Source: an uncultured Sphingorhabdus sp.
GTDB taxonomy: Bacteria; Pseudomonadota; Alphaproteobacteria; Sphingomonadales; Sphingomonadaceae
NCBI GenBank assembly: GCA_947501885.1
Contig: CANMXN010000001.1
Span: forward strand, 1,922,001-1,986,000
DNA: 64,000 nucleotides
Reading direction: 5' to 3'
Below are positions 16,694 to 33,305 of this stretch, piece by piece. Below the pieces are notes generated by a model. That model ran no database searches, had not been told where the DNA came from, and was given only the letters and a program-made list of their open reading frames with translations. The translations under genes and the position numbers were made by a program. Each line of letters starts with the position of its first letter. The stretch's first letter is position 1.

Positions 16694-17808
16694 CCTCGTA
16701 AAGCAGCTTTCGTGATATGTGCGTAGATTTGTGATAATTGCACCAAATCTGCAATTTCGACTGCTTCATCAAGCTTGTGCATGGTTGCATTACGAAGGCC
16801 AAACTCTACCACAGGGCAAAGCGCCGATAAAAATCGTGCATCGCTGGTACCGCCGCTGGTAGATAACTCTGTTTCAATGCCCGTATTCTTTTTGATGGCC
16901 GATGCTATAATGTCGGAAAATTCCCCTGGTTGCGTTAGAAACGGCTCGCCCGAAATACGCGCCTCCACGCTACCGCCATGTTTTCCAGCGATGCTAGAGA
17001 TAAGCGTGACCAATTCCTCGCCGCTATGTTCATCGTTAAAACGGATTGAAAGCCTAGCTTGTGCTTGCGCTGGGATAACATTATGGGCGCGGTTGCCAAC
17101 GGTGAGATCGGTAAATTCGATATTGCTCGCTTGAAACCATTCATTGCCTTCATCAAGTATTATGGCATCAATCTCGCTCATTATAGCTGTTAATTTGGTG
17201 ATTGGATTATCTGCCAGATGCGGATAGGCAACATGGCCTTGCATACCATCAACGCTCACCCACATATTCACCGAGCCACGCCGACCAATTTTGATCATAT
17301 CGCCCAATTTATGGACGGATGTTGGCTCGCCTACCAAGCAAAGATCAGGCACTATATGCTGCTCTGCCATATAGCGCATTATGGATTTGGTACCATAGGT
17401 TGCTGGCCCTTCTTCATCGCCCGTGATGATGAGGCTAATTATGCCAGCGTCTTTATCTATATTATCAAGCGCTGCAACGAAGGCGGCGATACTGCCTTTC
17501 ATATCGACAGCGCCGCGTCCATAGAGCAAATCACCGCGAATTTCGGGTGTGAAGGGATCTCCTTGCCAACCATCGCCCGGTGGCACAACATCTAAATGGC
17601 CTGCATAGGCAAAATGCCGCCCGCAATTACCGCGTATTGCAAAGAGGTTTTCTACAGGACCATCGGGGGCTTCACCTTCGGTAAAGCGGTGCACGGCAAA
17701 ACCAAGTGGTTTAAGCATAGCCTCAAGTGCATCAAATACTTGGCCCGTTGCAGGGGTAATGCTCGGACAAGCAATAAGCGTTTTGGCAAGCTCTACGGCT
17801 TTATGCAT
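16690..17808 (-). CDS. dapE: succinyl-diaminopimelate desuccinylase
   Basis: 372 aa M20 metallopeptidase-fold enzyme. It hydrolyses N-succinyl-LL-diaminopimelate to LL-DAP and succinate on the way to lysine and peptidoglycan. Metal-site motifs are visible: YAGHLDVVPPGDGW, GRGAVDMKGSIAAF and GDEEGPATYGT, plus SGGTSDARF near the C-terminus. The length matches the family. Its start overlaps the stop of the upstream hypothetical gene by one base (TAATG), indicating coupling. Confidence 0.96.
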   Translation of the reverse strand: MHKAVELAKTLIACPSITPATGQVFDALEAMLKPLGFAVHRFTEGEAPDGPVENLFAIRGNCGRHFAYAGHLDVVPPGDGWQGDPFTPEIRGDLLYGRGAVDMKGSIAAFVAALDNIDKDAGIISLIITGDEEGPATYGTKSIMRYMAEQHIVPDLCLVGEPTSVHKLGDMIKIGRRGSVNMWVSVDGMQGHVAYPHLADNPITKLTAIMSEIDAIILDEGNEWFQASNIEFTDLTVGNRAHNVIPAQAQARLSIRFNDEHSGEELVTLISSIAGKHGGSVEARISGEPFLTQPGEFSDIIASAIKKNTGIETELSTSGGTSDARFLSALCPVVEFGLRNATMHKLDEAVEIADLVQLSQIYAHITKAALRG

Positions 17809-18482
17809 TAAGCTTCCAATGTTTCAATTTTGGCATCGAGATCAATAGCGCGCGTTGATAAAACTTCATTGCCTTTGTTGAACAGTTCGAGATTTTTACG
17901 GTTAGCGCCAATTTCTTTTAATTTGGCATCGCGTTCATGCAACATTTCTTCAATCTCATCGCTATAAAGGCGGACCATAGCTGTGATAAGCTTATTTACG
18001 AGCTTGTCCTCTTGCGTATCATCGACATCGTAAAGCGGTAGATGGTCAATCATGATTTTGGCGGGATACATCCATTCATCGGTAACCCAGCGGTTGGTTG
18101 TGAACCATTCACGCGGGATTCCCTGTTTGTCGATGGATAAGGCTATTAAATGAGACACGCGGGCCTTTTTTTTATTCTTTGAATAATCAGGTTTGGCAAT
18201 GCTGCGCGAAGCTTTTTTTATCTGGGTCTTGTCCAAAAACAGGTGAAAATGCCCATGTTCATCTGGGCTGCGTGACCCTGGTTTATGGACATGATAATAC
18301 CAACGGGACTGACATTTTTTGCTTCGTGCATCGAATTTGGGATAATGTTCCCACCATTTAATATCTTCATCTTGGGGTAGGACGCGCTGCATGAGGGGCT
18401 TGCCCTCTTGTGCCATGGCTACAATTGATTCAATTACAGTCTGCGCTGCTTCTAATTGTATCGTGCGTTTATCTGCAGACAT
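17808..18482 (-). CDS. conserved hypothetical protein, possibly DUF6969 family
   Basis: 224 aa, soluble, with no signal peptide or membrane segment. It has a helical N-terminus, a central region rich in Trp, Tyr and His (SRWYYHVHKPG, GHFHLFLDKTQ), the segment HLIALSIDKQGIPREWFTTNRWVTDEW, and a long charged C-terminal helix, possibly coiled coil (about 170-224). The HFHLF stretch and overall layout remind me of the uncharacterised DUF6969 family; this is recollection, not a search result. It is coupled to dapE by a one-base overlap. I can give no function. Confidence 0.7.
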   Translation of the reverse strand: MSADKRTIQLEAAQTVIESIVAMAQEGKPLMQRVLPQDEDIKWWEHYPKFDARSKKCQSRWYYHVHKPGSRSPDEHGHFHLFLDKTQIKKASRSIAKPDYSKNKKKARVSHLIALSIDKQGIPREWFTTNRWVTDEWMYPAKIMIDHLPLYDVDDTQEDKLVNKLITAMVRLYSDEIEEMLHERDAKLKEIGANRKNLELFNKGNEVLSTRAIDLDAKIETLEA

Positions 18483-18650: not shown

Positions 18651-18684
18651 AAAAAAAAGACGACACCCAGAGGTGCCGTCTTCT
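18651..18684 (-). terminator. intrinsic terminator of the Cys/Ala-rich lipoprotein gene
   Basis: On the minus strand AGACGGCACC pairs with GGTGTCGTCT (one mismatch) around a four-base loop and runs into eight Ts. It starts about 20 bases after the stop codon, indicating a well-expressed single-gene unit. Confidence 0.88.
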
Positions 18685-18704
18685 TAAATTTATAAAGCGA
18701 TGCT

Positions 18705-19058
18705 TTAGTTAGCTGCGCAAGCTGCTGCACATGCTGCGCCGCAAACTGCGTCTTTAGCAGCACAAGCCGCGCCACAAGCTGCACAACCTACTGCTTCAGC
18801 AGCACCACATGCTGCGCAAGCTGCTGCACATGCTGCGCCACAAGCCGCACAACCAGCGGCACAAGCTGCTCCGCATGCTGCACAACCAGCAGCACAAGCT
18901 GCTCCGCATGCCGCACAACCAGCAGCACATACTGCGCCGCACGCTGCACATTCAACGGCACAAGCTGCATCAGAAGCTGTTTCTGATGAACATGCACTTG
19001 TTGCGATTGCAAGACCACCAGCTACTGCTAGCATAGATGCAAGTTTAGTTTTTCTCAT
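18705..19058 (-). CDS. small Cys/Ala-rich lipoprotein of 11-residue repeats, function unknown
   Basis: 117 aa from the ATG at 19058, which has GGAAAGGAT upstream; an in-frame ATG at 19094 would add 12 residues before the signal peptide. The signal peptide MRKTKLASMLAVAGG ends at a lipobox-like ATSAC with Cys23. From about residue 37 the protein is a repeat of eleven residues, CAACGAACAAG, with seven copies (one with Glu for Cys, one with Asp for Cys) plus a partial one. It contains 22 Cys, about a quarter of the mature chain, spaced 3-4-4. I do not recognise the family. Alternating 3-4-4 spacing is that of a helical hendecad, so the Cys could line one face of a helix and bind metal or a thiol-reactive ligand. 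It has its own terminator. Confidence 0.85.
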   Translation of the reverse strand: MRKTKLASMLAVAGGLAIATSACSSETASDAACAVECAACGAVCAAGCAACGAACAAGCAACGAACAAGCAACGAACAAACAACGAAEAVGCAACGAACAAKDAVCGAACAAACAAN

Positions 19059-19435
19059 TTTTGATCCTTTCCTTCCTAATCGATCACCATTCATTGTAAC
19101 GATCGATCAGGATTTTATTCCCTGTACAATCTAAAAATCATGGCCGCCAATCAGCATAAAATATGAGACTGACGAAAGATTCGGCTACAACACCTTTTCA
19201 CCATAGTATAGATAAAATTTGCAATAATTTTTCATCGATATAACTAAGCATATGATTAACAATAATTTTTTTTAATCTTAAATATTGTAAAATAGCTGAA
19301 AGTTATAAGAACCATTAATAAATATCTTCAATTTACGGTGAATCGCATACCGTTCAGCGCTGATTCATGCAATATTTTGGATGTGATTCTGTCTTAAAAA
19401 TAAGATTGATCATATATTATATGAGCTTAAGATCG
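19059..19435. other. AT-rich intergenic region upstream of the Cys/Ala lipoprotein gene
   Basis: 377 bases with no coding signal. The minus-strand promoter of the lipoprotein gene should lie here. A weak ECF-like pair (GGAAT then CGTT 15 bases later, minus strand, around 19105-19130) is below what I would call a promoter. GATCGATC-type palindromes lie near 19075-19110. The gene downstream on the minus strand is the lipoprotein; the GST ends at 19436. Confidence 0.4.
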
Positions 19436-32114: not shown

Positions 32115-33305
32115 ATGCGCTATTGGATACTCTCTCTTAGCATATTAGCTTTTGTGATATTTGTTTCTCATCAGGTTGTTGCGCAAAATACAACGAGGCA
32201 AGTGTCTGAAGAAGTTGCACAACAACAACGCAATTTAGCCGCTGCAAAAGAACGTAACCGTGAGGCATTAGCGCGCAGTAATGCGATACGGTCTCAGGCA
32301 GATTCCGTAAGTCGAGAGGCCGATAGATTTGCCTTAGAAAAACGAGCGGTCAGTGCTGATATTAATGCTGCACAGGCGAATTTGGATGCCGCGCGGGCGC
32401 GTATCGCAATCATTATTAGCCGTCAAAATGTACAGCAAAGATTGTTAGCCCAGCAAACGTCTCCCATTTTGCGGTTAATGGGAGCATTGGAAAATCTTAC
32501 GCGGAGGCCTGCATCATTGATGGTTTTACAACCTCAGAGCCTAGAGGATTATATTCATGTGCGGGCTGTCATGGCATCAGTACAACCTAGAATAGCGCGA
32601 CAAACTGCTAGTTTACGAGGGCAAATTGATTTGCAGCAAAATCTACGTGAACAGCAAAAAATAGCATTGCAATCCTTAGAAAATGCACAATCTGAATTGT
32701 CTGAAAGACAGGAGTCTCTGGCGCAATTAGAAGCGAATAGCCGCAACCAAGCAGGCGCGTTAAACGCTAATGCGGCAGTAGAGTTTGAGCGCGCTATTGC
32801 AGCGGGAGAACGGGCGCGTGATATTGTTGAAAATATTGATAATATTCAAGAGAATGAAGAAGTATTGGCTGCATTATCTGTCTTAAATGGACCTCAGCTT
32901 AAAGAAGGTTTGCCAATCATTGGAACAGGTCAAGACGCAAAACTTGCCTATATATTGCCCAAGTCTGCGCAAATTGTGAGTGGATTTGGTGAGATTAGTA
33001 AAAATGGTTATCGTGAGAGAGGTATTAGCCTCTCTGTACCGCCAAGATCTGCTATTGTTGCGCCTGCGAGCGGGACGGTTAATTATGCTGGGAAATACCG
33101 TAATTTTGGCCATATTGTTATTATCGAACATGGCGGTGGATGGAATAGTCTCATTACCAATATGGCTTCGTTAAATGTCTCTGAAGGGCAGAAAATTGAC
33201 CAAGGTAGCACCATTGGTACCAGCAAGATTAGTGGGAATGAAATATTGATGGAATTACGGCGTAACGGACGGCCCATGGATATTTTGGCGATTGCTACAA
33301 AATAA
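32115..33305 (+). CDS. EnvC-like murein hydrolase activator (degenerate LytM domain)
   Basis: 396 aa, starting one base after the rlmH stop. A signal peptide (about 1-24, ending VVAQ) precedes a long coiled coil (about 30-240) and a C-terminal LytM/M23-type domain (about 280-396). The zinc residues are missing: the HxxxD position reads RGISLSVP and the HxH position reads ILMELRRNG. Loss of these residues is the mark of EnvC/NlpD-type activators, which switch on amidases at division rather than cutting themselves. The role is inferred from that pattern. Confidence 0.9.
   Translation: MRYWILSLSILAFVIFVSHQVVAQNTTRQVSEEVAQQQRNLAAAKERNREALARSNAIRSQADSVSREADRFALEKRAVSADINAAQANLDAARARIAIIISRQNVQQRLLAQQTSPILRLMGALENLTRRPASLMVLQPQSLEDYIHVRAVMASVQPRIARQTASLRGQIDLQQNLREQQKIALQSLENAQSELSERQESLAQLEANSRNQAGALNANAAVEFERAIAAGERARDIVENIDNIQENEEVLAALSVLNGPQLKEGLPIIGTGQDAKLAYILPKSAQIVSGFGEISKNGYRERGISLSVPPRSAIVAPASGTVNYAGKYRNFGHIVIIEHGGGWNSLITNMASLNVSEGQKIDQGSTIGTSKISGNEILMELRRNGRPMDILAIATK

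Follow-up and report, generated by a model that had tools for sequence, protein, structure and literature searches.

A Cys-repeat lipoprotein and its DUF6969 partner in an uncultured Sphingorhabdus: a recurrent two-gene module with a probable role in binding metal ions or reactive sulfur within the envelope

The window analyzed here is a stretch of 64,000 nucleotides from contig CANMXN010000001.1 (positions 1,922,001 to 1,986,000) of an uncultured Sphingorhabdus sp. assembly of 2.65 Mb (GCA_947501885.1), and its subject is a minus-strand gene for a small lipoprotein with a Cys-rich repeat. Together with the DUF6969 gene that follows it, this gene forms a recurrent two-gene module of Proteobacteria, a Cys-repeat lipoprotein plus a DUF6969 protein. 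What is new is the recurrent pairing of DUF6969 with peptides in which a constant leader precedes a changing repeat of Cys or Met. Judged from its sequences, the module is a probable envelope binder of metal ions or of reactive sulfur. Within that range, we give a little under an even chance to the reading that the peptide is the exported half of the module, a soft-metal binder of the envelope prepared by its cytosolic DUF6969 partner. The relevant features, in window coordinates, are as follows.

18705..19058, minus strand: Cys-repeat lipoprotein gene, 117 amino acids (open reading frame and translation); product MRKTKLASMLAVAGGLAIATSAC, then SSET...
18993..19058, minus strand: lipoprotein signal peptide MRKTKLASMLAVAGGLAIATSA, of the leader type common to the family (by eye)
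18990..18992, minus strand: codon of the lipobox Cys23 (TSAC; from the sequence)
18708..18962, minus strand: Cys-Ala-Gly repeat of period 11 (CAACGAACAAG; self-identity by lag)
17808..18482, minus strand: DUF6969 (PF22308) gene, 224 amino acids (Pfam E 7.7e-63, 212.2 bits against a gathering cut-off of 27)
18651..18685, minus strand: hairpin resembling an intrinsic terminator, between the peptide and DUF6969 genes (folding energy; relatives)
19065..19077, minus strand: Shine-Dalgarno-like AGGAAGGAAAGGA ahead of the ATG, unchanged between the window and three relatives
19080..19109, no strand: inverted repeat GATCGATC...GATCGAT, 5' of the peptide gene (by eye)

The initial annotation of this DNA described a lipoprotein built of Cys-rich repeats, and this description was borne out by a 117-amino-acid open reading frame (ORF) with a lipobox. 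From the lipobox Cys onward the mature peptide has 95 amino acids, 22 of them Cys (the lipobox Cys counted) and spaced 3-4-4 for the most part, with no His or Met. The self-identity of the repeat part (85 residues) was 0.78 (58/74) at a lag of 11 and 0.79 at a lag of 22, whereas the best value over lags 2 to 23 never rose above 0.55 when the residues were shuffled 2,000 times, in agreement with the proposed 11-residue unit. In the repeat DNA, agreement at lag 11 was 0.91 at first codon positions, 0.78 at second positions, and only 0.50 at third positions. Third positions have drifted while first and second positions were kept, which argues that selection maintains the repeat at the protein level. 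The first 32 codons, covering the leader region, showed 5 to 6 synonymous and 0 to 3 non-synonymous codon differences from each of three relatives. Taken together, these results demonstrate that the peptide gene, its lipobox, and its repeat are real. An alternative in-frame ATG upstream would give a product of 129 amino acids.

The ribosome-binding site and terminator claimed for this gene were also found, as AGGAAGGAAAGGA before the ATG and a hairpin of -19.8 kcal/mol after the stop codon. The hairpin has 14 pairs and a T-run (z -6.7), and by eye its pairing is preserved in three relatives despite base changes; a simple terminator scan did not list it. The inverted repeat at 19080..19109, upstream of the peptide gene where the DNA is strongly conserved, is a possible operator or leader hairpin. 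Consistent with the claim that no described family has this repeat, neither Pfam nor NCBIfam gave a match to the window peptide at E 10, and of 7,993 candidates scored in a search of 5.8 billion proteins, three were relatives with E <=0.001. Of the 207 window ORFs of at least 60 amino acids, one besides the peptide gene exceeds 11% Cys (32555-32746, with a TTG start and 11 Cys in 63 residues).

The claim that did not hold was that of a single gene, in which the conserved partner had been overlooked: DUF6969 is encoded by the gene that follows on this strand. We compared the occurrence of the two genes at three scales. In the host family, relatives of the peptide were found in 10 and DUF6969 in 22 of 199 genomes, and all 10 peptide genomes fell within the 22 (P 3e-11); by genus, 6 of 6 peptide genera fell within the 13 of 96 that have DUF6969 (P 1.9e-6), neither P value being corrected for kinship. 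The best peptide match adjoined DUF6969 in 10 of 10 genomes (the window and L002-L010), as did 10 of the 12 peptide-matched places overall. Both unpaired matches, in genome G068, were paralogues with the same leader type, one of them a YHS-domain fusion (L011). At that locus (724-1722), exported Cys-repeat paralogues stood in tandem without DUF6969, and a neighboring protein had a similar YHS-like part by eye. Two genomes of the host's own genus (G137 and G192) lacked both genes. The window peptide query had no match in the other 12 host-family genomes with DUF6969, at least one of which (G041) on reading carried a different repeat beside DUF6969 (L107).

At the second scale, we used the best 80 of 343 confirmed DUF6969 loci, which are mainly sphingomonads and not independent; the closest are labelled uncultured Sphingorhabdus or Sphingomonadaceae. 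A criterion that ignored the wording of the leader (an ATG start, a hydrophobic stretch resembling a signal, and Cys numbering >=3 and making up >=3.5%) detected an ORF ending just upstream of DUF6969 in 76 of the 80 named loci, compared to 0/79 antisense, 0/71 farther upstream, and 1/69 farther downstream control stretches. The four remaining loci were two with Cys peptides that the criterion overlooked (L046 and L085), one with a Met-rich peptide (L054), and one starting at a contig edge (L065). With a leader pattern, which itself requires GG and some residues neighboring it, an upstream peptide gene was found in 79 of the 80, the exception being L065.

Across 398 genomes of the phylum, PF22308 was present in 20, at 21 places, and 15 of these places had a peptide carrying 4 to 28 Cys next to DUF6969 (the window, L096, L099, L101, L103, L104, L106, L107, L108, L109, and L110-L114; L108 is the L002 place and L109 the L005 place). 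L102, which begins near a contig end, was undecidable. Among 167 plasmid records, a peptide was present at four of the five places read (L116, where it has just 3 Cys, and L117-L119) and absent at L115. The peptide and DUF6969 genes were 7 to 8 bp apart in L110-L112 and overlapped in L116, going by the annotated start.

We also compared the peptides themselves. When 77 leaders were aligned on GG, a pair that the leader pattern requires along with some of its neighbors, the A-S-M-L-A-V-A and L columns nearby each held a single residue in 73 to 96% of sequences. The mature parts behind them diverged and averaged 39% Ala and 17% Cys. Constancy of the leader while the repeat changes would be expected if a partner recognizes the leader. 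Cys spacing was typically 3/4 in the window and its close relatives L002, L003, and L006; 5 in L009, L018, and L031; 1+5 in L008 and L107; 6 in L099, L104, L106, and L118; 7 in L090 and L113; and 9 in L119, and some peptides with the same leader type had mixed spacing. L031 (2258-2875) carries two tandem KPCAAK-type peptide genes ahead of DUF6969, only one of which has a lipobox. Some members are Cys-poor: L005 has 5 Cys and L010 and L094 have 3 each, the last two being acidic. In two others, Met-rich acidic repeats replace the Cys repeats, with 8 Met and 3 Cys in L033 (ORF 2456-2797) and 12 Met and 1 Cys in L054 (ORF 2648-2926). Such an exchange of Cys for Met would fit a ligand resembling Cu(I), and may point to one here.

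The same comparison bears on the proposal in the initial annotation that the Cys residues form a stripe along a right-handed coiled coil, making the protein a structural rod. The 3-4-4 spacing of the window peptide and its close relatives agrees with a rod, and so do the helices drawn by AlphaFold2, but the model (pLDDT 53.2, pTM 0.33) is of such low confidence that it decides nothing. Random Cys spacing among homologues had been named as evidence against the rod; spacing was mostly regular within each protein but differed between proteins, and, with two members built of Met repeats, the hendecad rod found no support as the principle of the family. Since Cys spacing varies among members, a single helical stripe is unlikely to be the working feature, and we consider a rod very improbable.

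The partner is a member of a large family, with at least 7,051 relatives (matches among 8,000 scored candidates). Its conserved motif is HxH...EHGHxH, and residues Y63, H64, H66, E75, H76, G77, H78, H80, H111, and N130 were invariant in each of two alignments, one of 61 sequences (two from loci and 59 chosen from the 120 best matches) and another of 16 that was more diverse; H46 was not, being lost in L113. In a confident model (pLDDT 92.1, pTM 0.91), the motif residues sit on strands 60-65, 75-84, and 109-118, and the histidine cluster is a probable metal site. No relative of solved structure was found by sequence search or by fold search. No export signal was seen in the window protein by eye; export signals were judged throughout either by eye or by a simple hydrophobic-stretch criterion. 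The open-access papers to which this search was confined mentioned neither DUF6969, PF22308, nor the repeat motifs, and none of the titles and abstract openings listed in broader searches described the pair; subscription papers were not covered.

The following picture of location, ligand, and recognition, and of what DUF6969 may do to the peptide, is inferred from these features. The lipoprotein would be made with its conserved leader and held in the envelope by the lipidated Cys23. There the 21 further thiols of the 11-residue repeat would capture a soft ligand, for which soft metal ions, Cu(I) among them, are the likeliest candidates. Its DUF6969 partner would remain in the cytosol, recognize the precursor, probably through the leader, and use its histidine cluster to load, shield, or modify the peptide ahead of export. 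Soft-metal or thiol binding seems the most plausible role of the peptide. As metal-type surroundings we counted ArsS-like clusters (L114, with DoxX and the end of an ArsS-like gene; L117, with thioredoxin, CcdA, and arsenosugar-type glycosyltransferases), a sigma factor with NrsF (L119), and the YHS-fused paralogue. The more specific idea that DUF6969 is a family of maturation enzymes with no PDB fold relative detected, which modify or metal-load peptides with low-complexity Cys (sometimes Met) repeats before export, is possible but doubtful. If true, it would define a new class of metallophores or metal buffers resembling RiPPs (ribosomally synthesized and post-translationally modified peptides), parallel to the MNIO bufferins that this genome also encodes and able to accommodate widely differing repeats, with a leader recognized by a cytosolic His-cluster metalloprotein. 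A domain of unknown function gains a partner and a testable role.

Several results weigh against a soft-metal binder prepared by DUF6969. A terminator-like hairpin separates the two genes in the window. Thiols appear dispensable, given the near-absence of Cys in L054 (1), L010 (3), and L094 (3), and the last two are not Met-rich either. No peptide was seen in 5 of the 21 phylum places (L095, L097, L098, L100, and L105), for which about 1.5 kb per side and ORFs of at least 65 to 75 amino acids were covered and three of which are one genus; in those three (L097, L098, and L100) DUF6969 has an FGE-type (EgtB/SenA-like) protein and a cytochrome c as neighbors, families checked by profile on L097 only. 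Furthermore, a Skermanella peptide of the NPC type (P0006) matched 43 of 398 genomes, only 3 of which (G299, G552, and G555) have DUF6969, with 2.2 expected; this count is rough both ways, as 4 of the 43 matches contain stops and the query missed L101 and L104. NPC peptides were present in the three P0006-matched loci that were read, two of them beside multihaem cytochromes (L121 by Pfam, L124 by eye). NPC-type peptides may thus do without DUF6969 or have a different partner. The two loci (L121 983-3250 and L124 2177-3938) lie in genomes with no DUF6969 match, and one of their peptides is fused to a SoxA/TsdA-type cytochrome c.

The terminator and the DUF6969-free NPC peptides instead suit a plain metallothionein-like metal buffer, a peptide needing no partner; DUF6969 would then be a metalloprotein in its own right, serving the same stress response. 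The many Cys and lack of His and Met in the mature window peptide agree with this as well. Conversely, a plain buffer does not account for the gene directly upstream of DUF6969 in 79 of 80 named loci, nor for leader conservation amid changing repeats, which suggests precursor recognition, and we regard it as rather unlikely.

Sulfur-type neighbors also point away from a metal ligand. The pair has Sulf_transp and rhodanese genes as neighbors in L110 and L113 (Pfam) and in L111 and L112 (by eye), L118 has a Sulf_transp gene (Pfam), a rhodanese occurs near L095, and a SoxA/TsdA-type cytochrome domain is fused to the repeats in L099, L101, L103, and L104; a P460-like fusion in L096 was under the cut-off. 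The peptide could thus carry sulfane sulfur or polysulfide and pass sulfur to the cytochromes, rhodanese, or transporter. However, no sulfur genes adjoin the window gene, whose neighbors are DUF6969 and a GST, and the Met-rich L033 and L054 peptides could not hold persulfides in that way, so that a sulfur carrier appears unlikely. Other neighborhoods bring to mind a spanin-like lipoprotein from the lysis cassette of gene-transfer agents (GTAs): GTA endolysin and holin genes lie upstream of the pair in L003 (Pfam) and in L004-L007 and L010 (by eye), and a holin in L084 and L094 (by eye). Since the window genome has its holin and endolysin elsewhere (L013) and, outside the host family, reading of the phylum loci revealed no lysis genes, this role is extremely improbable.

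Returning to the proposed envelope metal binder, we compared the module with known systems. Copper storage proteins (Csp) and metallothioneins have, as the window peptide does, many Cys that would suit soft-metal binding. Unlike these, the window peptide has no Pfam or NCBIfam match; with regard to the four-helix bundle of Csp and its inward Cys, its model is helical at a low-confidence pLDDT of 53.2. CefA, the "Cys-every-fifth" RiPP peptide (NF038108), resembles the KPCAAK members in its regular five-residue Cys spacing; the window peptide did not match NF038108, and the best relative, the second peptide of L031 (E 8.6e-5), reached 22.4 bits, below the cut-off of 30. DAG-RiPPs are RiPP-lipoprotein hybrids and MNIO substrates, recognized by a C-terminal motif (PMC12636315). 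The present module is like them in that a candidate modified peptide uses the lipoprotein pathway and unlike them in that no MNIO adjoins the peptide gene.

In plan, the module is akin to the bufferins (Buf1/DUF2282, Buf2, and Buf_EGKCG/HvfA oxazolins), MNIO-modified, copper-binding RiPPs; about 16% of Buf2 bear lipoprotein signals (PMC12452194). The window peptide had no match to NF050188 of the HvfA/Buf_EGKCG oxazolins, and L082 reached 16.8 bits against a cut-off of 95. It shares with Buf1 a lipoprotein-type leader (by eye) on a Cys-containing precursor and lacks DUF2282 (PF10048; no Pfam match at E 10), for which the host's own Buf1 gave E 7.5e-24. Neither MNIO (PF05114) nor DUF2063 is adjacent; the only MNIO detected in this genome lies on contig C2, where the host Buf1 operon (DUF2282, MNIO, DUF2063, and DoxX; L120 1068-3569, genome G000) lies apart from the window gene. 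Both systems place an exported Cys-rich precursor beside a dedicated cytosolic partner, and both include tandem precursors, cytochrome c fusions, and DoxX or sigma/NrsF neighbors (PMC12452194). In contrast, the partner here is DUF6969 rather than MNIO and DUF2063, and the repeats differ. The DUF6969 system is thus planned like the bufferin system and is not a member of it, and it would extend that plan, an exported Cys peptide with a cytosolic preparer, to a second partner protein with no detected similarity to a solved structure.
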